Below, one piece after another: positions 5,622 to 22,476 of a stretch of DNA of 32,118 nucleotides. The notes beneath the pieces are model-generated. The model saw nothing but the letters and a program-made list of their open reading frames with translations. It was not told the origin of the DNA and ran no database searches. The first letter of the stretch is position 1, and each line of letters begins with the position of its first letter. Origin of the DNA: Monosiga brevicollis MX1 (lineage: Eukaryota; Opisthokonta; Choanoflagellata; Craspedida; Salpingoecidae); the NCBI RefSeq assembly GCF_000002865.3, contig NW_001865064.1:360895-393012 (forward strand). Reading direction: 5' to 3'. The translations under genes and the position numbers were made by a program.

Positions 5622-8600
5622 ATGGCCTCTTCAACGCGCGTGGCGTCAACCCAGAGGATGGCGCCCCTGCTCCTTTTGCTTCTTCTGCCCTTCCTGGCCC
5701 ACACCGCCGTCGTTACGCCCTTGGTGCGTTCAAGCCGACCAATCTCCTCCGTTGAATTCAGAGCGCATTAACCACTGTGCCCCCACCCCCTCTCTCTCTC
5801 TCCCTGTGGCCATATGACTTGATTGACTCACGCTTGTTCCTGGGCGTGCGGCCCTGCTCACTGATAGGCTACGCAAAACGGCCAGCTCAAACTGACTCTC
5901 ACCCCCGAGTTGTTGTGCGTCATAACATTGCCCCTTGATGAATCCCCGCCTCGCTTTCTTCCTCGGCCATTCACCGGCCGCCTTGTTATGCTCGTGCTCG
6001 GACTATAGGCTACACGCCGAGGATGACTCGCACAAGCTGACTGCCCCCGACAACGCCACGCACGCGTGCGACCTGCATTGCACCGACATCCCCAACACGG
6101 CTTCACAAGCTCAGCGGGATTTCTGTGAACGGCGTTGCAGCCCTCAACACCGCCAACGTCGCTCCGGTTGCATCGCCGACGGTGGTCACAGTGCCTGCTC
6201 TTCAGACACTTTTTGCGATTACTGGTATGCTGGCTTGAATGCACAATGGCCCCAAATTACGGTCTGCAAAGACATCCTGGATAGGATTCCTCGTCTCATC
6301 CACTTTGATCGTGCACCTGTACCTATTCATCTTTTGCATCCATCAGGGACGGATGCTGGCCTTGCAGTGACTGCCGGGACATTGAGAGCTTCGACTACGC
6401 CTGCCCTGCAAAATGCTCGGCTGATGAAGGTTGGCGTTGGCGCTTTGTATTTTTTTTTTTTATCTTCATATTTTTTTTTGCCTTCATCACAAATTTCGTC
6501 CCCCCCTCCCTCTCCCATGCTGTCAACGCCCGCCTGCTGCTTCTAACATCTTTGCTGTGTCCAGGTGATTACATTCAAGTCACTCTGCCCACCGCCTCGG
6601 ATGCGGCCGCAGCCGGTTATTACTTTGGGCTTGAATGGCGTGAAGTTGGTGTACGTTCCTATTCTCAAGGAGGCGCATCTCCATGGAATTTGGGTGGTGT
6701 CATTCTTTTCTTGCCTCTGGCTCCCACCGCTTCCCACTCCACCTTTGCTTCTCTTCACAATCATTCGTGTGGTGCCCCTGCAGTCCGTCGACGAATACAT
6801 CACGGCTTATTTGGTCCCTAAAAATTCAGTGACGCCCATGTACACCATTGTGACCTGGATTGACAAGCGCGTGGGCCAATACTACGGCTGGCGCATGCCC
6901 GAAACCACGCCGGCGGGTGAATACTGGGTTGCCATTGTTTCAGCCCATGATCCCACAACCGTCATTGGCACTGGCCCTGCTTACTCCACGTCCCTCGGAG
7001 ATACAGGCTTTGAAGTGATTCCCTACTACTGTGAATCCCATGACGACTGCGATGGTGATGAATACTGCGATGCTTATGGTTCCTGCTGGCTTTGCAAGGA
7101 CTGCTTCCTGGAGCGTGACAGCTTTGATGGCGCATGCCCAGCCCACTGTGGTGGAAACACTTTTGCGCATGGCACGGCTTACCCCACCGCCGACGAGGCG
7201 ACAGCCGTGGGCAGTGACGTGGACATTATCCGCCCCGGTTGCCCAGCCTACCAGGCTTTGCAAACTTTGCGCGCGCAAGCTGGGCTGTCCTTTGCCCCTT
7301 CGTCTGGCAACATGTACCCCAACGTTGTCTCTGCTCGCATGGCATCTCGCCTCAAAGTCCTTGCCAACCTCGTGCCCCGCGTATTTGGTGAAAGCGCTGC
7401 CGTGCTGGTCCTCGATGCCTATCGAGCTGCCCCGCTGGTTGCAGCCGAGGCCACTTTGCACAACACAGGCCGTGCAGCCCTACTCACCGTCATCAATGTC
7501 ACCGCCTCCCTCGACGATGAGCTGGCTGCGCTTGCCTCGGTCTGCGCTGATGCCGGCTTTGACTATGTCCTCTACAATAGCTCTGCTGCCATTTACGTCT
7601 CGGTCATGGAGGACTCTTGCGACCGTCCCATGGACTTGGCCTTCTTGATCGACGCCTCGGGCTCCATCGACAAGCCAGAGTATGGTGGTCGCAATGGCAC
7701 CTTCTCCCAGCGCGTCATTCCCTTTGTCAAGAACGTCGTCCGCAACTTCAACGTCTCGTCGGAACAAACCCGCGTATCCGTCACCACGTTCTCCTCGGGC
7801 TACAACATCTCCTTCTTCTTGGACGAGCACTCTGACCTCAACAGCGTCCTTGCTGCCGTCGACACTATTGCTTACACGGGAGGCGGAACCTACACCGCGG
7901 CTGGACTAGAGGCCATCCGCACCCAGGTCTTCACCGAATCCAATGGCATGCGCCCCGCCAGCGAGGGCGTCCCTCGCGTTCTCATTGTTGTGTCCGACGG
8001 TGCCGCGTCGGCGGGCTATGAGCCCGCCTCGGAAGCTGCCCTTCTTCACGAAGATGACGTGAACGTCATTGCCGTGGGTGTCGGCAAGGCCATGAATCTG
8101 AACCAGCTCCGAGACATGGCCACCGGCAGCGGCGACAGCAACTTGTACACCATCAAGTCGTTTGATAAAATCTCAGCCATTGTTGATGAAATGAGCTCGG
8201 GCGCTTGTGATGAACCTGCGATTCTGGCCACGGGTCTCACCATTGAAGCCACGGTCCAGGCCTGTGAAACGCTCTTTTACAAGCCCCAGTGTGCTGATCA
8301 GAACAACGTTCGCCTTGAGCTGACCAGCGCTACGGGTGCCGTCAACCTCTACGCAGCCCGCTCCACCCAGACTCCCACGGAAGCGCGTCACGAGTACGCC
8401 AGCACGGGCTCTAGCCAAGTCAAGTCGATCGTGGTCGAACCAAATGAGGATACCCTCTACGTCGGCATTCACGGCACTGCCCTGGTGCCTGAGAGCTTTT
8501 CCCTGACCGTGTGGACAGACGTCTTTAGTGGCACCGCCGACCCTGTCATCTCCCGTGCCGAGAATGCTCCGATTGGCTCGATCGTCTACACCCCCAGTGT

Positions 8601-11600
8601 TGCCATTGCTGGCACCTTCACCTTCTCCTTCGCTGGCTCCGTCTCGGCTCTGGCGACTTTTGCTGTCAATGCCACGTCGGGCGTCATCACCCTCATTGCC
8701 CCTCTGGACCGTGAGGTGATTGACGTGTACACCCTGCAGCTCGTGGCTCAGAGCCAAACCCTCGAGTGTGTCAAGGGCAGCGTTGACATAACAGTACAGA
8801 TCGCCGATGTCAACGATAATGCCCCCGTACCCTTGATCCCGAGCTACGATCTAAGCATCGCGGAGAACGCAGCCGTCGGTACCCTTGTCACCCAAGTGCT
8901 TGCCACCGATGCTGATGCTGGAGTCAATGCAAACCTTGCCTTCAGTATTCCTGCCAACGTCATGGCCTTTGCCATGGACGGCACCACCGGCCGCCTTACC
9001 GTGGCCAGTCCCCTCGACGCCGAAACCCAGAGCACGTACACGTTTCAGGTGACAATCGCCGATGGCGGGGCACCAGCCCTCGTCACGAGTGTCCCCGTCA
9101 CCATCACCGTTTTGCCCGTCAACTGCTCTGCTGGCAGCTTCAGCACCACTGGCACGTACCCCTGCACGGCCTGCCCTGCTGCCCACTACCAACCGGGCAC
9201 GGATCGTACCCAATGCCTAGCCTGCGGCTGCCCTGCCAACTTTTACCGCCAAGGGTCTTGCACTGCCTCCTCGAATTACAACTGCCTGGCGTGCCCGGCC
9301 AATTCCGAGGCGGCCGCGGGCGCGACCCAGCTCTCACAATGCCAGTGTTCCAGCGGTTATTATCGCTTTGCCTTGGGCGCCGGGAGCTTTGAATGTCGGC
9401 CCCATGTCACAAATTGCGCTGATGGGCAGTATTTGACCGGTGAGGCCACTTCTACCTCCACCCGTACTTGCACCGATTGCACCCGAGCCAGCAGCTGCGG
9501 GCCCAGCGAGTACCTGGCGGGCACTTGCAGTCTCAGCTCGAACACCGTTTGCACCTCGTGCTCGACCTGTGCCGCTGGAACTTTTGTGGCCACCGCCTGC
9601 GCCGCCAAGGCCGACACTGTGTGCGCCCCCTGCACGGATTACGACAGTGATTGCGCCGCCAATCAGTATTTGACCCACCTGTGCAGCTCCACAAACACAC
9701 TGTCCAATCCGACTTGCCAGGACTGCATCACCAGCTGCGGTTCGGGTCGCTACCTCACGGGCACGTGTGGTGGCGCCGACGGCACGGACTTTCCTTCGTG
9801 CGCGGATTGCACGCCTTGCGCTGCCGGTCGTGAGTATCAGGTGCAAGCCTGCAGTGCCTCTGCCGACCGCGTCTGCGCGCTCTGCACGACCGAGTGCGGA
9901 GACGGTCAATATCTCTCCGGACCCTGTACCGTGACTGGCCCTGCGCCGACGTGTGTTGACTGTGTCACCGAATGTGCTGCGGGAGAGTATCTGACCTCCG
10001 ATCCCTGTGGTCCCACGAGTGGCCCGGTCTGTGCTGCCTGCGATCCCAGCTGTGCCACTTGCACCGGTCCCCTTGGCAACGAATGCACCGCGTGCCAAGG
10101 CGAGCAGCACCTCACCCCGAGCGGTACCTGTGCGGACGACTGCCCCGAGGGATTCTTTCCCCTTGAAGGTGTCTGCACTGCGTGCGACACGCTATGCAGT
10201 TCGTGCATCAACGCCTCCTCTCACGGCTGTGTCAGCTGCGATGACCTTGCATACCTCCATGATGGCGGCTGCGTTGAGACCTGTCCTGCTGGAACTTGGG
10301 CGAATGACGCCACTGGGAGTTGCAGTCCTTGTTCAACGTGTGCTGAAGATGAGTGGCAGCAATCCGCCTGCTCCGCGACCAGTGATGCTATCTGCAAGCC
10401 CTTGCTCGAGTGCGAGGCTGGAGTGGCATTTGAGTTGACCGCACCCACACCCACGACGAACCGACAATGCCAGGTGTGCCGCTCCTCTTGCCCTGCCGGC
10501 CAAGAGCTGACCGGTGATTGCATCACCAGCGATCGGGAGTGTGCTTCGTGCCCCAACCAGACCTACAAGGCGATGGCCGGCGCTGGCGCTTGCGAACCCT
10601 GCTTGACGGTGGGTGCTTGCAGTGATGGATACTATCTTGCCGGCACGTGCAGTGATGGCGTGTCTTCAACGCATTGTGCAGTGTGCCCCACCTGCGGTGC
10701 CGGTACCTACCGTGTGGGCGAATGTGGCGGCACCAGCTCCTCGACCTGTGCCCCTTGTGACGAGTGCGGTCCGGGTGAGTTTCAGGTGTCACCTTGCGCC
10801 AACGAGCAGAACCGCGAGTGCGCCGCGTGCACCACGGCGACCGATTGCATCACTGGCCTTGAGTACCTGGCCGGCACCTGTGGTGGTACCTCCACTCCCA
10901 CTTGCACTGCTTGCCCGACAGCTGATCAATGCGCCATCGGGGAGTACTTGGCGGGATCGTGCACCACTGATGGTCCACCACCCGAGTGCACCACCTGCAC
11001 GCCATGCGCTGCTGGTGAACACGAGGTTTCGCCCTGCACGGCTACCAATGACCGCGTCTGTGCCCCCTGTGTGGCCAATTGCCCCTCGGGTCAATTCCTG
11101 ACCGGCATCTGCCCTGGAGATCAAAGCACCACCTTTGCCCGCACGCTGGTCGTTGATGGTATCAGCTTTGCCGTCCTAGACGGCACTGACCCAGCTAGCA
11201 GTGACATTGCTGGCCAAACTGGCGCCCATACCTTGCCGGCTGGCTGGTCCTTTGCTGCCGCCATCTCCGCCAGCAGTGCTCAGATTGCCTCGGCGGCCGC
11301 ACAAGCCGCTTGGGGAACCACTTGCGTCGCCATCGCAGGGGATGAGGCCTTGCAAACAGCCCAGGGTACTAGCCCGGGCACTGCTTGTGCCTGCGAGCCC
11401 GCCGATTCGTATTTCACTTTCCTTTCTCAGACGAGCCAAGCGGTGCCAGGAAGCTGCCAAATGCGCATTCTCGTGGCCTTTGTCCCTCCCGCTTGCTCTG
11501 CTTGCACGGCCGAGTGCGGGGAAGACGAGTTCCTCGACGTTATCTGCTCGGGTCGTCAAGACAGCGTCTGCCGCCCATGCACCGTCTGCACGGCGGGTGA

Positions 11601-14600
11601 GCAGTATGAAGCAGAGGCCTGTGCGCCAGCTGGTCCGGGCACGGCTGATCGCGAGTGTGTAGACTGCACCTCGTCGTGCGCGGCTGGTGAGTATCTGGAT
11701 GGCACCTGCACGGCATACACCACGCCAACTTGTGAGGCCTGTTTGACCTCGTGCCCTGCGGGCTATTGGTTGGAGGGCACTTGTTCGGGTGGTGCGGACC
11801 ATCCCACTTGCCAACACTGTACCGTCTGCCAGTCTGGCGTTGAATTCTTGACGGCCAGCTGCACCGCCTCCTCTGATGCAATCTGTGACACGTGTCTCAC
11901 GGCCGATGACTGTGCCGGCAAGAACCTGTTCCTCGCGGGAACTTGTGGCCCAACCAGCGGTACCACGTGTGAACCTTGCGTGACGAGCTGCACAAACGGT
12001 GAATATCTCGCTGGCGTCTGCGATGACGGCCTTGAGAAGACGTCCTGCGAGGCTTGTCATGCTAGCTGTGAAACTTGCAACGGTGCTGGCGCAAGCGCCT
12101 GCACCACGTGTCCCTCGAACATGGTCCTTGTGCGCAACGCACTTGACTCGGCTGGCCACTGCACCAGCGAATGCCCCAACGGACAGGCGGCCGACGCTAA
12201 CGATGAGTGTCAGGACTGCGATGACAGCTGTGCAAATTGCGCACTGCCTGCCAATGCCAGCGCATGCACATCGTGCCCCAGTGGAGCCCCCTTCTTGACC
12301 GCTGATGGCACATGTGTTGCAACTTGCCCCAGCGGCTATTTCGGTCATACGGGCCTTGGCCAGTGCCAGCCGTGCGGTGAATGCGATGCAGAACAATACA
12401 TTGCCACACAATGCGGCAGCACCACCGCCACCGTCTGTGCCGACTTGACGGTGTGTGAGCCCGGCACTAGCCAAGACCAAGCCGCAACACCCACGACGGA
12501 TCGCACTTGCGCGCCTTGTGCTCAAGGCACCTTCGCTTCATATTCCGGGGCTCTGGCATGTGCTGAGCACACCGCTTGCATCGCCGGTGTCACCTTTGCG
12601 TCGCAAGCCCCAACCACCTCCAGCGACCGTGTATGCACTTCCGTTGCACCTGCGTGCACTTCTCAACAGTATGAGACGGCCCATCCGACACTCACTAGCG
12701 ACCGGACCTGCGCCACCCTCACAACTTGTGGCATTCATCAGTTCGTCAGCCAGCGTGCTACGGCTTCAACGGACCGCTCGTGCACCAACTACACGGTCTG
12801 CAGCAGTTCAATGTATCAGAGCGTGGCCCCCACGGCCACCACTGATCGCGCTTGCGCTGACGTGACGACTTGCTCTGCTACACAGTACGAAACTGCAGCC
12901 CCGGACGCCAGCAACGATCGCCAGTGCGCTGACGTGTCGGCACCCTGTGCTGCCGGTGTTGCGTTTGAAACGGCAGCGCCAACCGCCACATCTGACCGCA
13001 CTTGCCAAAGCTACAGCCCAGCGTGCAGCGCCCCGGCTTCCTTTGAATGCACGGCGCCAACGCCGACGAGCGATCGTTTGTGCTGTGCCACTACACCATG
13101 CGCGGCCTCGCTTGAGTACCAGGCTGCTGCGCCCACAATGTCCACGGATCGCGCGTGCGCCAATGTCTCAGCCTGCGACCCCGAATCCTTTATCAGCATG
13201 CCTGCAACACCCACCTCAGACAACGTTTGCGCGGCCGCCACGGGATGCGAACCCTCTGAGTTTGAGAGTGGCGCTTTGACGGCCACTTCAGATCGCGCTT
13301 GCACTGAGTGTGCAGTATGCGATGCTGTTTCCACGTACACCCTGGCCAACTGCAGTGCCTACGCTGACACGCAGTGCGCTCCTTGTTCCACGTGCGGTCT
13401 AGGCTACTTTGCCGCAGACGACTGCTCACCTTTTGCTGACACGCGCTGCCAATCTTGTGCAGACTGCGGAGCAAATCAGTTTGTTGCCACGGCATGCAGC
13501 AGCACGGCCAATACAGTCTGCAGCGACTGCTCCAGCTGCGCAGCTGGTGAGTACCGTGCTGCCAGCTGCAGTGACAGCTCTGACACCATCTGTCACACCA
13601 TTTCCACCTGTACCGCATCTGAGTATGAGCGCCATGCGCCCACGACCACGTCCGACCGTGTCTGCTTGGCCGTCACCACTTGCACGAGCGCGCAGTTTGA
13701 GGCCTCCGCGCCCACGACCACCTCCGATCGTGTCTGCCTGGACGTGCGCAGCTGCTCCTCTCCGCAGCTGTACGAGGCAGCAGCTCCCACTGCCACCTCG
13801 AACCGTCAGTGCGCCTTCCTGCGCAACTGCACGGTGGAGCAGTACGAGTCTGCAAGCCCCACCCCCACGTCAAACCGTCAGTGCACCCCGTTGACCGAGT
13901 GCAACTTTGGCGAATTTGTTGGCACCGTCCCGTCAGCAACCAGTGACCGCGTGTGCGTGCCCTGCCCGGCGGGCACTATTGATCACGATAGCATGCCCGA
14001 AACTGCCTGTCAACAGCTGCCTTCAGGCTCGTACGCGCCCGCCGGCTCCTACGGCACCCCGGCCAGCTTTGTGTGTGCGCCCGGCTCGGCGGATACGGAT
14101 GCCAACCCGGCTACTGCTTGTGCTGGCTGCTCTGGCGAGACCTACCAGAATCTGGCCGGCCAGACCTCGTGCAAGGCAGTCGCCCAATGCTTGGCTGGTG
14201 AGGAAGAGAGTCGTGCACCAACACCGACATCCAACCGTCTTTGCGACGAGTGCATCGTGGGCGTGACCTTTAAAGCCGTTGCTGGACAGGCTGTGGGCTG
14301 TGCCAACGTATCTCAGTGCGCGGCTGGAGAGCAACAGCTTGCTGCTCCAACGCTCATCTCAGATCGCACGTGCGAGGCTTGCCCAGCCGGCACCAGCAAA
14401 TCAGAGCCTGGACAGGCTGTTGATTGCGAGGCTCACCAGGTTTGCGTGGCTGGCGAATACGAGACTGCGGCCCCCACGAGCTCTACGGATCGCGCTTGTG
14501 CCGCCTGTGACGCAGGAACCACCGACGACGATGGTGTAGCCACGACCCCGTGCCAAGCCTGCTCTGCAGGAACTTTTGTGCCCGCGGGACAAGCTGGCTC

Positions 14601-17600
14601 TTGTGCCAGCCTCCGCTGTGCCCTCGGTTGGGCTGATAAGGATGAGGATCCCACCACAGCGTGCGAGGCGTGTACGGGTGGCGTCGACTTTGCCGACGAA
14701 CGCGGAGCCACGGCGTGTCAGCCTGTGCAAGCGTGCGCGGCAGGTACCACCGAGGGCAGCGCGCCCACCACTTCAGCCGATCGAGAGTGCGTAGCATGCC
14801 CCAGTGGCACCTTCAAGGCTGATTCGGGATCGGCAGCTTGCATTCCTCATACCAACTGCACGCAGCTTGGCCAGTACTACGCCGCCGTTGGCACGGCTAC
14901 GGCGGACAGCCAGTGTGCCCCGTACACGACCTGCCAAATGTGGCAGTATGAGCTTCTGGCACCCACGTTGTTCCAGGATCGTCAGTGCCAGAATACAACG
15001 ACATGCACGGTGCTGGAGTTTGAGTTGAGCGCTGCCACGGCAACATCAGATCGTTCTTGCGACGCCCTCTCGCCGCCTTGCACCTCCAACCAGTACGAGG
15101 CACTGGCACCTTCAGCCACATCCGACCGTGCCTGCGCGCCGCTGACCACGTGCGCAAGCTCAACTGAGTATGAGCAGGTGGCGCCGACTAGCAGCACCGA
15201 TCGCGCCTGCGCCAGCCTGACCACGTGCGCCTCGGATCAGTACGCCTGCCTTCCAGCAACGCCCACTTCGGACCGCAGCTGCTGCGCTGTCCAGACCTGT
15301 CTCGCCAATCAATACGAGTTTCGCAGCCCCACTGCTACCAGCAACCGTGTGTGTGCTTCCTGCTCGGCCTGCACCACTGGCTACTATGAGTTTGAGGCTT
15401 GCAGTTCAGGCAGCAACACCAACTGCCAGGCCTGCACAACGTGTGCCGCGGGTGCCTACGAGACCCAGCCTTGCCAAGGTGGCTTGAACCGTGAATGCAG
15501 TACCTGCACTGCGTGCGTGCCAGGCTCGACCTACGCTGCTACTCCGTGCAGCCCCACCCAGAATCGGGCGTGCAGTCCTTGCACCCCCTGCGCCACGGGC
15601 GAGTATCGTACCGCGCTCTGCACGGTGGATGCCAACACGGCGTGTGCGCCTGTGTCCCCTGCGTGCGATACATCCTCGGACTTTGAGCTTGCTCAACCCA
15701 CGACGACTACCGATCGCGTGTGCCAGGCTCTCACTGAGTGCAGTGCGACACAGTACGAGTGCCAGGCCCCCGATGAGCGCCATGACCGTCAGTGCTGTGG
15801 TATCAACACCTGCAGCAGCGGCTACACAGCTACCACGGCTACGGCTACCTCGGACGCACAGTGTGCCGACCTTACCGAGTGCGAGGCTACCCAATATCAA
15901 CAGGTGGCTCCCACCGCCACTTCAGACCGCGTGTGCACCAGTCTGACGACATGCACGGAAAACGAGTACCAAGCCACGGCCCCTGGCCCGTCTAGCGATC
16001 GCATCTGCCTGCTGCTGAGCACTTGCGGGGCTGGCGAATACGAGTGCGTGCCCGCCACCGCAACCTCCAATCGCCAGTGCTGCGTGCAGCCTCTTCAAGC
16101 CCAACCGCCTGTGCCTCGATTTGATGTGGAACGTGCCTTTGTGGCTGGTACGCCGGTCTTGGGTGCTTCGGCCTCTACCGGCAGTTTCAGCTACGAAGCC
16201 AGCGCTGACTTGACTGCTACAGCTGGCTTGCCCGTGACCTCCGAGTACGAGGTTTCGGCTACAATCGGTGATGTCACAGGCCACGCAACCATCAACATGG
16301 GTTTGCCTGCTGCTGCTCGCGTCGAGGCCATTCTGGCCATGGATGGCGACGTTTTCCCCGAGCAGCCCTTGGTCACGGTGGCTTTTGCCGTGTCCGATGC
16401 CAATGGCGGCGCTCAGGTCACTAGCACTGACGTCGCACTCGTGCTGGTGCACAGTGACGGCGTATCGGAAGTCACAGCCACCTGTATCACGGACGCTGCG
16501 ACCGGCACGTGTGTGGCCCGGCATGCCGTTCCTGCTCACTGGTTTGCCCCAACCATCACCACGCTAACCGTGCGTTATGGCCTTGCCAGTGCGGGTTCCG
16601 CTGGTCTGGCCACCCTGCAAACGGTTACACTGCAACCAACGCGTAGCCCGGCCGTTGTGGAGGACGTTTTGCTGGCCCTCCCTCGTGACAACGTCTACGC
16701 TGGCGACACCTTTGTTGTCAGCGCACACGCTAATTTCAGCTCCTCCGTCAACGCCTGGGCCCTCACCATGACGCTCGGCGAGGGTCTTGAGCTAGTGGGC
16801 GTGGAGTATGACCACGTTCTCTGGCGTGCAACGACCAGCATTCACTCGCTCAACCGCGGCCTCGCGGCCGTGGGACAGCTGGCATCCTACGACAACGCTG
16901 CCCTCACTTCTTCGGTGCTCTTCAACGTCACCGTTCGCGTGACGGCTGCCGTTGTCGATGCCGACGTGGCCATTGACTGCGCTGTCAATCACGTGGCAAC
17001 CGTTGAGGGCGGCCATGTTCTGCCCGGCGGGCGTACCGCCAGCTCACGTCGTCCCACTTTTGCTGATCGCTACGGCGTGCAGTCTGCCGTTGCCGGCCGC
17101 GTATATGTTGCCAGCACCGCCGACCTAGGTCTCTTTGTCGTACCCGACACGGTCAATCTGTTCAACACGGCATTCTTGGACGGTCACGACGTCAGTGCGA
17201 CCATGGCAATTCTTGGCGTCACACGCCAGGGCACCCTGCGCAGCATCACCGATGGCATCACGTGCTCCAGCGAGTCGAGCTTGGTCACGGCCTCTGTTGA
17301 TTGCCGCACGCTTTCTCTGACTGCGGCCAGCGCCACCACCGTTGAGCCTTCGCGCAATGTTGTGTTTAACGTGGGTGACAACTCAAAGTCGACACAGGTG
17401 CGCGTGTGGAGCCCAAGCACGTTTGCCATGACCGTCTCCGACGACGAGCTGAGCCCGGTGCAAGGCTGGCTGGATGCTGACAATGGCTGCCAGCAAGTGT
17501 ACCAACGAGCCGCCGTGACCGTGCGTGCCAACTTCGAGGCCCAAGGCAGCAGCGCCATCACCGACGCCGACGTGACTGCCTTTGTGCAGCTCCACTCAAG

Positions 17601-20600
17601 CGATGCGGCCACAGCTGGCGTAACGCCCGTTCTGCACGGCAGCCACATTGTCGGGTATGACGTACAAGGCGTGGCACCAGGCACCGTGATCGTGGAGGCG
17701 CGCACTAGCTCCGGCACCACCTTGGCGTCAGAGGCCGTCACTGTAACGGCAACGCCTGTTTTGCCCACTCGCCTTGATCTGACCCCAGTGGCGCAGATTC
17801 GCGTCACCGTACCTGGTTTCCAGCGCGGAAGTGATGGCATTGCCCAAGCGACCGTGGTCTCGAACCTAACAACAGCGGCCCCGCGCGCCTATGTACACGC
17901 CACCCTCATTACTTCGGACTCGCAGCGCCAAGCGTTGACTATCGATGATGGTCTTGCTTTGACGACGAGCAGCGCCAGTCTGCGGGTGGATGGACAAGCC
18001 ATCATTGGCCAAAGCCGCTCCAATGGTGCCCTCTTTACGGCGTCGTGGACGACCGCTACCTGTGCCGCAGCTGCTTCGCTTCAAAGCACGGTGCAGGTTG
18101 TTGTTGACCTGCCGGCCGTGGCCAGCATCACTCTTGCCGCGAGCTCCACAAGCCTGCGGGCTCCTGGTTCCGTTCTCGCCAGCCTGGCTGCCACCTCGCA
18201 CCCGAGCTGGGTCGATGTGTCAGTGACCGTGGCGTTGACGGACGGTACTTCACGCCCCGCCGTAGCAGCGGATGGCATCAGCCTGTCCGCTGCCCCGGGT
18301 GGCATTGTATCCGTGTCGAACCTGCGCGTGACGGCGGCCACGGTCGGCGCCACTGTTGTGACCGCCACTGCTGGCAACGGAGTCATCGCCACCCTCAACT
18401 TTGCCGTGGTTGATGCAGCCTCGTACACGGTCGCCTGTGATGATGTGACAGGTCAGTCTGTGACGGAGCTACGCACCGTGCATGCCAACGGCTTCTACGA
18501 AGCGTGTGAGGTCAAGCTCACCGCTTCGTTAACGGATGGCTCCGAATTAACAAATCTTGCTGCCGAGGCGGCTTGGTCGGCTATGCCTGCTTCTGCCGGC
18601 TCTTTTGTCGCGGGTTGGTGGCGACCGAGCCAGCTTGGCAGTGCAACGCTCACCGCTTCCTTGGTCGGCACGGCGCTTGGTTCAATTGCTTTGGACGTTG
18701 TTTCAACCACGGTGGCTGTGACCGGCATTTCTCTCGAGCTGCCGACTCACGTGTCAGGCGAATACGATGCCGTGCAAACGCTGCCGTTCAGCGTCACGCT
18801 CGATGATGGCACCGTGATTACATCTCCCCAAACCCCTTTCCTCCCAGGCAACCTCTTGGCCGCCTCGGTTAGTGGCGCAGGTGCCGCTGCCGTGGCCGTG
18901 ACCGCTTCGGGGGTAGCTGACGCCCTGGCTCTACGATTGATTGGCTCAAGTTCCGCCCCGTTCACTTTGGCTGTGGCCACGACGGCCGGGACCCCGGTGA
19001 GCTCCCAGATGACAGATGTTGTCGTCAATTTGTTGCCTGGCGTACACGACGCAGACCTCGGTACCGCCAACGGCTTGCCTCTGGGTCAACCGCAGGTTGG
19101 TCAGAGCCAGGTGGCCGACCTGCGCATCAACGTGGGAACCGAGTCTTTGGTGGAAGCGCGTCTGCGGGTGACATTTTCAGAGCACGTGCGTGTCCTCAGT
19201 GTGTCGCGTGCAGCGGCTACAGTGGATGGCACTTTCACGACGGTGGTGGGATCAACCGGTGAGGTGACGATTATTGCAGCGCCCGCCTCGAGCGCCACCG
19301 GTGTCGTGTCGCTGGGTGGCCTCACTTTGGCCATGGACAGCGCCGGCGATGCATCCGTGCTCGTATCCATCCTGCGACTTGAAACGTCAGCAGGTGTCGT
19401 GGTGCCCAGCTCGGCGCCTGTGGACGCTGTTGCTGCTTCGTTTGACTTTACCGTCAGCGGCGACAGTGGAGATCGACGCCGCCGTGATGTTGCCACGACC
19501 GCCTGTGCCAACCCTCCCTGCGCCTCATGCGCGGGTGGTGCGGCACACCAATCGGGCGACGTGGACGGCAACTGCATTTTTGATGCCAGCGACATCACAT
19601 ACATCCAAACAGTTGCGCTCGCCACCCTGCTTGACCCGGCGTTCCCCGACACGCTATTGCAAAACCAGCAGGCCAACCTCGATGCCGATGGTGACGGAAG
19701 CTTTGATATGTCAGATGCCGATTATTTGCTCCGGGTGTACTCACGCCTGATTTTCTTTGTGCACGACTTGACTGTGGCCCCTGTCTCAACGGATTCGGGC
19801 TGTCGCCTCACCATCTCAGCCTCGGTGGTCGGTCGCAGTGACTTGCCTGCCAGTGCTGCCTCGGTGAACCTTTTCTTCGACGTCGAATCAACTCTGGGTG
19901 GCTTCAGCTCCCTGTTTGCGGCAAGCGAACTGGAGGTTGGCAGCGTGTTTGCCTCCACCAAGGGTGCCAATCATCAAGGAGGGCTGTGGCAGGCCGCCGC
20001 AGACGTCGAGACGCCGGGCCGGTTCCTCGTCATCGCGCGTACCCCAATGAACCTGACGGGCGAGTCAGGCATTACCGTCATCCAGGCCTCGTCGCCCTAC
20101 TCGTCAGCCAGTACTGGCAATAGCAGCAGTGGCAGTGGTGGCACCATCAACGTAGGAACCGATTCGTCCCCGGGTGGTGGCTCTACAAGCCTCACAACAA
20201 ATGCTCTGAACGGCCGTGTGCGCGTGACATCAGGAGCCGGTGATGCGCCATATGCTTACTCGCCTCTCAACATTGAAGTATCGGCGGGCAGTGCTGGTTT
20301 GGCCCGTGTATCGCTGACCGAAGGCTACAATCCGCTCGTGTTGTTTGAGAACGATCTGGCCACAGGCACCTGCCACGCTCAGGCCGTCGTTTGTACTGCC
20401 AACGAGTATGAGGTGGCGGCACCCACGGCTACGACATCGCGCTCGTGCATGCCCCTGACCACATGCGCTGTTGCAACACAGTTTGAGTCTGTGGCGCCAA
20501 CGAGCACATCAGATCGCTCGTGTACCAACGCCACTCAGTGCACGGTTGACGAGTATGCTGCGCAGTCGCTGACGGCCACCTCGGATCGCGTCTGCAATCT

Positions 20601-22476
20601 GACCTCTGTTTGTGCGCCCGAGCAGTTGGTGTTCCGAGAAGTGACTGCGACCTCAGACCGTGTTTGCCGCAACAACGTGACCTGTGACGTGGGCTCTCAG
20701 TATGAACAGGTCCCCATGTCCCTCAGCACGGAGCGTGTATGTGCTAACCTGACCGTGTGCAGCGAGTACCAAGACACATTGGCCCAGCCTACCCCCACCT
20801 CTGACCGAGTGTGTGAAGACATTGACTTCTGCGAGTCAAACCCCTGCCTCAATGGAGGAGTCTGCGTCAGCCTGGAAGCCACCTTTGAGTGTGTCTGTCC
20901 TCAGGGTTTCACGGGCGACACGTGTGAGCTGGTGGACTACTGCTCCTACGACGACTACTGCGGCATTGCTGCGGGCCGCGCCTCGGCGTGCATCAACGAC
21001 TATGAGAAAGAGGCCATCTTCTGCACGTGCACGGCAAACCATGCTTGCGGCTGCTGCGACAGTGCGCCGAGCCCATTCCCTTGGGTTGTGGACCAATGCC
21101 CCAGCTGGACGCCTTCGCCGACGTTGGACAAGTCCTGTGAGTCCTTTGACAAGATTGAGTCGGACGCTAGCCGTTCCAACTCGAACAGTGGCACCAACAC
21201 CCTTCAGGAGAGCTCGGCGGCCATTGCTGGGCTGGCTGCGGGCGTGGTTCTGGTGCTTTTGGTATTGATCTTTGTGGCGGTTCGCTACCGTCGCTCCCAG
21301 CGCTTCAAGCCGGAGGATGACGACATGACCACGTTGATGATGCACAACAATCCCGTCTTTGAGCAGCCCGTGCCCGTGGATGCCTACATTGGCAGCCACA
21401 AGCGAGCAGCTGGCTTTGCTGGCATGCGGTACCACGACAATCTGCTGCAACTGGATGATGCCCAAGTGGGTGTGGTATACGATCTGCTTCAGCTTCCGCG
21501 CCCAGCCAAGTGCATGCTGCAGCCGTTGCAGGGTCGCCTGGACATGTTCCTCAACCGCTACGTGCCCCCTGCAGCCGCCGAACTAGGCTCCATGGGCGAG
21601 GCTCACCCCATGCTGGAGGAAAGCCTGGCCTATCTTCTCTCGGCTCTTGTTGATACGATGATGGAAGAAGCCTTGGACACCTCTGCCAGTCTTGCGCAGA
21701 ATGAGGTACCCGAAGCCGAGCGCGCCGTCCTTGCGTGGGCCGAGCCCGCCAAGAGGGGTCGCGCGCTTCGCATCAAGGATTTTGCGGGCATGAAGCCCAT
21801 GCGCTGGAGTCCGTATGTGGACCCGTCTACGGGCTTGCGCGAGGAGGCTGAGTACGAGGATATGTCTGCTTTCTTCAGTCGCCCTACAATTCGTCGCAAG
21901 GGCGTCATGGCCAACAACGGCTATGACGTTGCTCTGCACGCGCAAAGCGGGGAGTATGACTTTGCGTTGCCGCAAGACGAAACGACCTATGATCTCGCCG
22001 CCAAGACCGGCGGCGATGTGTATGACGTGGGAGCTCGGCTGCACGAGCCTTTGCAGGGCTTTGACGAAGCACCGTACTACATGGCATCTCCGGAAGCGAC
22101 TTACACGGTTGCGTCTCCCGAGGTTACATACTCAACGGCAACGCCGCAGCATGGGCACGATGACGACCGACGCTACTCATATGCAAGCGACGTTTACTCA
22201 CAGCGCGGAAGCAACCCATACCTCAACAAAACTGATGACTATGAACAGGCCAATTACGGCATGCCTTTGTATGACGATCATGATGACGACTATGACGATG
22301 CGTCCACGCTTCGGGTGCCGCAGCCCAACTTGGACGACGACTACGATAACATGGTAAACGCGCATCAGGCATCAGAACCGCAACGCTTGCAACAAGCTTC
22401 GCGCCCCATCGAGGTGCGCCCGGGCTCGGTGCGCTATTCGAAGCGTGATTCAACCGCTGATTCGGCCGAGATTTAA
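5622..22476 (+). CDS. Giant hedgling-like transmembrane receptor: Hedge-VWA-cadherin-TNFR repeats-TMEM132-like-dockerin-EGF-TM-pTyr tail, about 5,408 aa
   Basis: Exons: 5622-5723, 5868-5914, 6009-6224, 6347-6429, 6565-6650, 6784-22476; 16,227 bases in phase, all GT...AG. Domains by approximate residue: signal peptide 1-29 (hydrophobic LLLLLLLPFLA; Met13 is an alternative start); paired Cys modules near 119-131 and 261-290; Hedge-like 345-456; VWA 458-647 with MIDAS D468xS470xS472; PPC-like beta domain about 660-755; two cadherin repeats 764-957 (DVNDNAP, ATDADAG); Cys-rich repeats 958-3279; TMEM132-like module about 3290-3834; Ig-like beta domains to 4257; second cohesin-like domain; RRRR at 4409-4412; dockerin-like EF-hand pair about 4436-4500; short Cys repeats 4712-4857; EGF 4857-4894; membrane helix 4990-5011; tail 5012-5408 rich in tyrosine. 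This indicates a type I surface adhesion or signalling receptor. Hedge-VWA-cadherin order is that of hedgling proteins. Introns occur only in the first 1.2 kb. The family calls are by eye; the membrane topology is strongly supported. Confidence 0.9.
7291..7617 (+). other. Hedge-like (hedgehog N-terminal signalling) domain within the giant protein
   Basis: Residues about 348-456 follow the hedgehog signalling domain by eye: SARMASRLKVLANLV matches the CKDKLNALAISV helix, ATLHNTGRAALLTV matches the SLHYEGRAVDIT segment, and CADAGFDYVLYNSSAAIYVSV matches [22 protein letters not shown]-type sequence. The VWA domain starts immediately after it, as in hedgling proteins. Of the animal zinc triad only one His is kept (H404); the Asp and second His positions are L411 and Y449. 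The acidic calcium-binding cluster is not evident. Confidence 0.75.
7618..8190 (+). other. von Willebrand factor A domain within the giant protein
   Basis: Residues 458-647 start at MDLAFLIDASGSID, giving the metal-site DxSxS at D468, S470 and S472. The GGGTYTAAGL loop supplies T547, and VLIVVSDGA supplies D583. The MIDAS therefore looks intact and able to bind a divalent metal and ligand, as in integrin I domains and collagen-binding VWA domains. Confidence 0.9.
8536..9120 (+). other. Two cadherin repeats within the giant protein
   Basis: Residues about 764-957. Repeat 1 ends in the calcium-linker motif DVNDNAPVP. Repeat 2 has SIAENAAVGTLV, ATDADAGVNANLAFSI and the strand motif TGRLTVASPLDAE. 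The first repeat is divergent at its N-terminus (ISRAENAPIGSIV) but has TSGVITLIAPLDRE in the expected place. Confidence 0.88.
9121..12450 (+). repeat. TNFR/GCC2-like cysteine-rich repeats of the giant protein, with a non-Cys insert
   Basis: Dozens of units of about 40 residues with patterns such as CxxCxAGxYLxGTCxxxSxxxC resemble TNFR, GCC2/GCC3 and furin-like repeats. They begin with an ephrin-receptor-like unit (GTYPCTACPAAHYQPGT). At about 11126-11490 a low-cysteine insert of about 115 residues breaks the pattern between GDQSTT and CSACTAECG. These units probably form a long disulphide-linked stalk outside the cell. Confidence 0.88.
12450..16086 (+). repeat. Short APTxTSDRxC tandem repeats of the giant protein, main block
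   Basis: I count about 33 copies of a unit of roughly 22 residues with consensus TxCxxxQYExxAPTxTSDRxC, mixed with TNFR- and GCC2-like units (for example 13300-13600 and 13960-14900). The cysteine pair, QYE and TSDR core are the best-kept positions; SNR, STDR and TTDR variants occur. A second block of six lies at 20383-20820. Confidence 0.9.
16105..17750 (+). other. TMEM132-like cohesin and Ig module within the giant protein
   Basis: Residues about 3290-3834 track the TMEM132 ectodomain in order: TCITDAATGTCVARHAVPAHWF (the Cys pair followed by WF), then a cohesin-like domain from DVLLALPRDNVYAGDTFVV to AVNHVATVEGG. Next come VVPDTVNLFNTAFLDGHDVS and a C-x8-10-C segment, then VWSPSTFAMTVSDDELSPVQGW followed by CQQVYQRAAVTVRANF. 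TMEM132 proteins have VWxPxLPLxIxxSDxELSxIxGW and a QYQRAxVxVxxxF segment at the same places. TMEM132 is known to combine a cohesin homologue with Ig domains and to be of holozoan origin. Confidence 0.75.
19027..19435 (+). other. Second cohesin-like beta domain within the giant protein
   Basis: After several bacterial-Ig-like (BIG2-type) beta domains, residues about 4260-4396 begin GVHDADLGTANGLPL and continue with VGQSQVADLRINVGTESL, ARLRVTFSEHVRVLSVS and VSLGGLTLAMDSAGDASV. This is the usual cohesin-type alternation of hydrophobic strands. It lies directly before the polybasic site and the dockerin-like pair. The family call is by pattern only. Confidence 0.5.
19555..19752 (+). other. Dockerin-like pair of calcium loops within the giant protein
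   Basis: Residues about 4436-4500 contain GDVDGNCIFDASDITYIQ and DADGDGSFDMSDADYLLRVY. Each has the dockerin calcium loop with acidic or Asn ligands at loop positions 1, 3, 5 and 12 (DVDGNCIFDASD, DADGDGSFDMSD), followed by a short helix. The gap between the two loops is about 10 residues longer than in bacterial type I dockerins. The pair follows a CANPPCASC segment and a polybasic RRRR. Confidence 0.75.
20818..20931 (+). other. EGF domain within the giant protein
   Basis: Residues 4857-4894 read DIDFCESNPCLNGGVCVS followed by FECVCPQGFTGDTCE, with all six cysteines and the CxNGGxC and CxxGFxGxxC motifs of a canonical EGF domain. It sits between the second block of short Cys repeats and the membrane helix. 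Confidence 0.93.
21217..22476 (+). other. Membrane helix and tyrosine-rich cytoplasmic tail of the giant protein
   Basis: The helix AAIAGLAAGVVLVLLVLIFV (residues 4990-5011) is followed by the stop-transfer RYRRSQRFK. The tail has an NPVF motif, a helix-rich stretch of about 200 residues without a recognised fold, and then about 18 tyrosines in the last 185 residues. Four YD(V/F/L)(A/G) units start at bases 21922, 21955, 21988 and 22021, exactly 33 bases apart. Two YxN motifs (YLNK, YDNM) match the known Grb2-type SH2 preference. An ASPEATYTVASPEVTYS near-repeat also occurs. Confidence 0.85.

Follow-up and report, generated by a model that had tools for sequence, protein, structure and literature searches.

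A TMEM132-type module and a cohesin-RXRR-dockerin unit in a hedgling of Monosiga brevicollis: a candidate cut-and-clamped receptor

The stretch analysed here, hereafter the window, is 32,118 nucleotides long and comes from the choanoflagellate Monosiga brevicollis MX1 (contig NW_001865064.1; C31:360895-393012 in our numbering). It carries a long open frame encoding a hedgling-type receptor, in which a module related to the ectodomain of TMEM132 is followed by a second cohesin, a furin-type R-X-[K/R]-R motif and a dockerin (Table 1). Hedglings are described as large membrane proteins in which a Hedgehog signalling (Hedge) domain adjoins a von Willebrand factor A (VWA) domain and cadherins (PMC4054682, endnote c). 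The window protein fits this definition, with a Hedge domain adjoining VWA, cadherin repeats and a transmembrane segment, and about 24 TNFR-type repeats make up the array ahead of the TMEM132-type module. The profile searches of the whole genome covered 39.5 Mb in 57 contigs.

Table 1. Features of the hedgling frame in the window (positions are those of the whole stretch)
Feature	Positions	Strand	Basis and remarks
Hedgling open frame	6547..22476	+	5309 codons + stop; upstream first exon(s) not included
Hedgehog signalling (Hedge) domain	7204..7602	+	PF01085 E 1.1e-6; one of two genome matches
VWA domain	7633..8187	+	PF00092 E 5e-37
Two cadherin repeats	8557..9114	+	PF00028 E 1.2e-25, 2 stretches
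TNFR-type cysteine-rich repeat array	9200..16100 (bounds approximate, by eye)	+	PF00020, 7 + 17 stretches, E 1.5e-18 and 4.7e-44
Whole TMEM132-type module	16303..18126	+	leave-one-out paralog profile, 315 bits, E 7e-95
TMEM132 2nd domain (Cys pair + VPxxWF)	16339..16566	+	PF23481 E 8e-4, below cut-off
TMEM132 3rd, cohesin-like domain	16651..17050	+	PF23039 E 0.14 (longer query); bounds by alignment
TMEM132 4th domain (first Ig/BIG), with Cys pair	17131..17418	+	PF16070 E 7e-12
TMEM132 5th domain (second Ig/BIG)	17431..17751	+	PF23486 E 9e-4 to 2e-3, below cut-off
TMEM132 6th domain (third Ig/BIG)	17752..18126	+	alignment and paralog profile; PF23487 matches paralogs only
Spacer, about three Ig/BIG-like domains in appearance (by eye)	18127..19038	+	no Pfam match
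Second cohesin domain	19039..19470	+	alignment and low-confidence model of the window copy
RRRR, furin-type cleavage motif	19474..19485	+	sequence
Dockerin, calcium-type loops DVDGNCIFDASD and DADGDGSFDMSD	19555..19728	+	PF00404 E 0.0014 and loops
Conserved beta-rich domain after dockerin, ends GYNPL...C	19756..20370	+	alignment of 13 units
TNFR repeat and EGF domain	20698..20922	+	Pfam scan
Transmembrane segment	21223..21282	+	hydrophobic stretch in sequence
Cytoplasmic tail, tyrosine-rich	21283..22473	+	397 aa

TMEM132 is an animal nerve-adhesion protein. A sequence-only reading of the window had proposed that a TMEM132 module is embedded here in the hedgling, from a series of landmarks, all of which are present in the plus-strand open frame 6547-22476: a Cys pair (16483 and 16510) ahead of VPAHWF (16528), LFNTAFLDG (17158), VWSPSTF...VSDDELSPVQGW from 17404 on, and QVYQRAAVTV (17494). 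Profile searches bear the proposal out. When the module stretch was compared with 24,736 Pfam models by hmmscan, Ig_TMEM132_4th scored 45.6 bits against a cut-off of 27 (E 7e-12), and Ig_TMEM132_2nd (E 8e-4) and Ig_TMEM132_5th (E 2e-3) matched in the correct order, both below their cut-offs. The sole further listing at E ≤ 1 was Calmodulin_bind (0.047), no generic Ig or BIG family being listed at that threshold for the module stretch; the 6th-domain model was not listed for the window copy in the Pfam scan of a longer query. Furthermore, a profile made from 11 other modules of the same genome matched frame residues 3253-3860 (nt 16303-18126) with 315 bits and an E-value of 7e-95, and it matched none of 50 module shuffles and none of the reversed frames. 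The two Cys of the 2nd domain are invariant across the 12 aligned modules, and the window copy also has Cys at the columns matching the BIG1 disulphide and the BIG2-BIG3 Cys, whose places follow the description in PMC6030884. Because of the 4th-domain match, its ordered neighbours, the lack of any BIG match and the behaviour of the paralog profile against shuffles, we take the module to be real and to end near 18126; the presence of a TMEM132-type ectodomain module inside a hedgling is thereby confirmed. As the third Ig domain extends to about 18126, the end at 17750 proposed earlier falls short. The residues 3290-3834 assigned to the module follow the numbering of that reading's gene model; if the GTG at 6565 is taken as the first codon, nucleotide 16105 is residue 3181.

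The genome holds many relatives of this module. With PF16070 there are 14 matches, whose frames range from 1275 to 11,470 aa, and our own paralog profile adds five divergent modules (two in C34 and one each in C54, C4 and C22, the last at 333-336 kb), so that at least 19 TMEM132-type modules are present. Among 12 modules scanned against Pfam, PF16070 was found at E ≤ 0.01 in all 12 and a BIG family in none, the 3rd-domain model PF23039 in two (best 3e-4) and the 6th-domain model in one. The six-frame genome search returned five matches for the 5th-domain model, one below cut-off for the 3rd, two for the 6th and none for the 2nd, and the window copy is absent from the lists of the 3rd, 5th and 6th. 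The module C22c was lost to the HMMER bias filter and regained at E 1e-17 with the filter off, its match being confined to profile positions 108-534. The count of modules omits a partial stretch in C38 (profile 322-598). None of 14 control genomes was matched by PF16070.

The neighbours of these modules differ from frame to frame: Hedge, VWA, cadherin and TNFR domains in the window, cadherins in C22, C40 and C10, cadherin and EGF domains in C27, TNFR repeats in C54, C34, C4 and C11, and EGF repeats in C22c. These observations support the view that the module behaves as a cassette in this genome. The earlier suggestion that the TMEM132 ectodomain was a mobile cassette before animals is partly supported, by the at least 19 copies with varied neighbours within this genome; mobility before animals would be an extrapolation from them. 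The embedding of the module in a hedgling is not new, and the unit that is repeated turns out to be larger than TMEM132. No stand-alone TMEM132 of about 1000 aa was seen, in a search that reads exons without introns and scores the best candidates only, which leaves absence unproven; the shortest frame with a PF16070 match, of 1275 aa in C54, is a TNFR-rich piece beside an assembly gap. Near-identical tandem copies of the cassette occur in C11 (L016/L025, 900/900 aa) and C38 (L011/L019, 865/900 aa), and represent either recent duplications or assembly effects. On its cytoplasmic side, the C54 receptor (L026, C54:1933400-1936800) carries a PDZ domain (E 3.9e-5).

The heart of the TMEM132-in-hedgling finding was already published in 2017, since Sanchez-Pulido and Ponting state that hedglings, coherins and lefftyrins contain all five TMEM132 domains in the same order (PMC6030884, section 2.3). 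In these choanoflagellate and sponge proteins the five domains lie within large cadherin-family receptors, and the window protein is such a hedgling. The main text of that paper on hedglings, coherins and lefftyrins makes no mention of a cut site or a dockerin beside a second cohesin. Compared with animal TMEM132A-E, the window module shares the order of the Pfam domains and the places of the Cys. It differs in that the protein is much larger (the animal proteins stand alone with about 1000 aa, whereas the module here lies in a frame of 5309 codons, and all 14 PF16070 matches lie in frames of at least 1275 aa), in that its tail lacks the WIRS and RVxF patterns, and in the extra cohesin-RXRR-dockerin unit.

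What is repeated across the genome runs in the order TMEM132 module, Ig-like spacer, cohesin, R-X-[K/R]-R, dockerin and conserved beta domain. The presence of the second unit could be assessed for 18 modules, a set that excludes C54a, which ends in an assembly gap, and it follows in 17 of them. The distance from module to second unit is 274-405 aa (mean 315, standard deviation 31) in the 14 units measured, C22c being left out, as were C38b and C11b as copies. Both halves of the supposed binding pair can be recognized in paralogous units. Pfam Cohesin was found in 6 of 13 of them at E ≤ 0.1 (best 4.6e-17) and Dockerin_1 in 7 of 13 at the same threshold (best 4.5e-5), and a profile of the 13 units matched dockerins in the PDB (best 4dh2_B, E 3.6e-6) and, weakly, cohesins (best 4ums, E 0.005). 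In the window copy itself Pfam Cohesin gave no match at E ≤ 0.1. The top five Foldseek matches of a low-confidence model of its second cohesin were cohesin or cohesin-dockerin chains, none at E ≤ 0.001, and other beta sandwiches tied with them under VIA-align 2. The window dockerin scored 19.2 bits against Dockerin_1 (PF00404, E 0.0014), for a curated cut-off of 22.9, and has both of the paired calcium-type loops D-x-[DN]-x-[DN]...D; the dockerins of C38 and C4 lie above the cut-off in the genome search. When the window cohesin-dockerin stretch was searched against bacterial and archaeal contigs, none of 140 pattern matches was confirmed. In C34, three cohesin-RXRR-dockerin units lie within one frame. 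One unit, C22b (L023, C22:141900-144300), has a Kunitz inhibitor domain (E 1e-14) inserted in its post-dockerin beta domain.

All of the first 15 units have RX[KR]R no more than 85 aa ahead of the dockerin, and two further units, fetched via a cohesin search, also have it (RARR in one, RRRR and RSRR in the other), which gives 17 of 17. Four of these dockerins (C27, C10, C11a and C34b) were first noticed around such motifs and are therefore not blind cases. By our tally, 25 of the 31 RX[KR]R motifs in 34,908 aa lie at this place upstream of a dockerin, in a total that includes overlapping stretches, counted twice, and near-identical copies; three of the remaining six come after a membrane segment (one in the window and two, overlapping, in C34). 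Composition shuffles of the window protein placed a motif at that position in 0.3% of 2000 trials. Moreover, two Arg columns are among the columns conserved at 90% or more, in a cohesin-dockerin linker that is otherwise gappy. Wherever a Cys lies between motif and dockerin, calcium loop 1 has one as well: 12 of 15 units have both and the other three have neither. As befits a furin substrate, R-X-[K/R]-R lies between folded extracellular domains and a convertase gene is at hand: the genome has a furin-like convertase exon, whose frame contains the last part of a subtilisin-type catalytic domain followed by a P domain and matches solved furins at E 2.3e-35. More than one basic site is present in several units (L013/L014 in C40, L020 in C4, L018 in C38, L017/L029 in C34, L023 or C22b, and L026 in C54), one near the cohesin end and one just ahead of the dockerin; cutting at both could excise the intervening linker.

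On the inner side of the membrane, simple WIRS and PP1 RVxF patterns found no match in the 397-aa tail. Its tyrosines stand in the repeated contexts YDVAL, YDFAL, YDLAA, YDVGA, YTVAS and YSTAT (21283-22473) and make up 6.5% of residues, versus 2.6% before the membrane segment. Such a composition is as would be expected of a tail used in tyrosine-kinase signalling. The second Hedge locus of the genome (L022, C28:223519 region) continues into a VWA-like stretch and has an RQRR ahead of its Hedge match, a possible propeptide site. Elsewhere in the window, a plus-strand frame at 26105-27454 matches a thiopurine methyltransferase-type methyltransferase (PF05724, E 1.2e-26).

Because cohesin and dockerin flank the furin site within one chain, the arrangement suggests a receptor that is cut and yet clamped. 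We propose that furin would cut the hedgling in the secretory pathway, between the second cohesin and the dockerin. The dockerin, loaded with calcium on the membrane-bound half, would keep hold in cis of the cohesin on the distal half, and the ectodomain with its Hedge, VWA, cadherin, TNFR and TMEM132 parts would stay on the cell as a non-covalent heterodimer. The Cys between cut site and dockerin, together with that of loop 1, would pin the new N-terminus to the dockerin. Force or a ligand could then pull the two halves apart, and signalling may pass via the tyrosine-rich tail. The observations on which this proposal is built are the domain homologies, the domain order, the position and conservation of the motif, and the furin-like gene. 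We regard a furin-cut receptor held by a cohesin-dockerin clamp in cis as the best explanation of these features, with a probability of roughly 0.5.

Several observations weigh against it. The paralogs of a single genome are not independent. The history of the cassette's two halves is only partly shared: their distance matrices correlate with a Mantel r of 0.49 (p 0.001, 14 units), which falls to 0.29 (p 0.09) without C40b, and the trees of both halves agree on (C22a,(C22b,(C40a,C40b))), whereas the window copy groups with C38 in one of them and with C34c in the other. Finally, cadherins and a membrane segment directly follow the module of C40c, which lacks the second unit. C40a and C40b (L014 and L013) are 81% alike from cohesin to beta domain and 32% in the TMEM132 module, a pattern suggestive of conversion or partial duplication confined to the second half.

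The motif and the convertase gene would equally serve a receptor that is shed. Cleavage at RXRR would then free the whole distal ectodomain as a soluble or matrix ligand, with cohesin and dockerin binding other partners, and the RQRR upstream of the Hedge domain at the second Hedge locus agrees with such processing. We nevertheless judge shedding to be rather unlikely, given that the motif is flanked by the two members of a bacterial binding pair and that the C34 protein, with three units in one frame, would lose nearly everything. In bacteria, cohesin and dockerin are binding partners whose pairs join separate proteins (PMC6030884, section 2.2), and the M. brevicollis dockerin might likewise bind, in trans, the second or the TMEM132 cohesin of another molecule or cell; any cleavage would then only expose the dockerin N-terminus. 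The many cohesins and dockerins spread over many surface proteins would suit adhesion of this kind. The 1:1 order within each unit and the similar spacing point instead to a partner in cis, without proving it, and make the trans arrangement unlikely in our opinion.

One may also suppose that the basic motifs are uncut linkers and that the region is no more than the known TMEM132-bearing adhesion ectodomain. Cleavage is predicted here from sequence, and several copies hold two or three basic clusters, as plain linkers might; but RX[KR]R is rare elsewhere in the frames and is kept in a linker that otherwise varies, and a furin-like gene is present, so that we give this possibility little weight. 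Least probable by far is that the module consists of generic BIG/Ig domains which resemble TMEM132 by chance. The Ig domains of TMEM132 are themselves BIG-like (PMC6030884), the 2nd, 3rd and 5th domains of the window copy score below the Pfam cut-offs and the 6th is not listed; on the other side stand a 4th domain well above its cut-off with the others in order, and PF16070 rather than BIG in every one of the 12 modules. The sequence-only reading had itself named an equally good fit to generic Ig/BIG domains as grounds for giving it up, and no such fit appeared at E ≤ 1 for the module stretch or at E ≤ 0.01 in the 12 modules. The Pfam scans of the window copy and of these modules in practice refute the generic reading.

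The furin-cut, clamped receptor that we favour would differ from the systems in which its parts are known. With the bacterial cellulosomal cohesin-dockerin pairs (PDB 4dh2, 4ums) it shares the dockerin loops and, in paralogous units, the cohesin and dockerin profiles. Unlike them, it has both partners in one chain, with a furin-type motif between, in a eukaryotic receptor. Cleaved receptors that persist as non-covalent heterodimers include those cut at Notch S1 and those with GAIN or SEA domains. The proposed logic would be the same as theirs, namely a cut in the secretory pathway, halves kept together and the possibility of separating them, whereas the hedgling clamp would consist of two separate domains binding each other. 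We found no description of a cut-and-clamp arrangement in the open literature, in a search made at the level of titles and the opening lines of abstracts, with key papers and supplements outside its scope. As far as could be seen, then, the TMEM132 part is known and the cohesin-RXRR-dockerin cassette is a new arrangement of known parts.

A tentative, perhaps doubtful extension concerns the origin of the animal proteins. Giant receptors that predate animals may have used a force-sensitive cohesin-dockerin clamp over a furin cut, up to three times per chain as in C34, and animal TMEM132 proteins could be remnants of them without clamp and cut, in the manner of the membrane-proximal module of C40c. 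In this way the cassette suggests a concrete route by which the TMEM132 ectodomain could have become a protein of its own. If the proposal is true, hedgling-type receptors would work on a definite principle supplied by the cohesin-RXRR-dockerin unit, that of being cut but clamped, and the role of the eukaryotic cohesins in hedglings, coherins and TMEM132 would become a question of binding and cleavage on two small domains.

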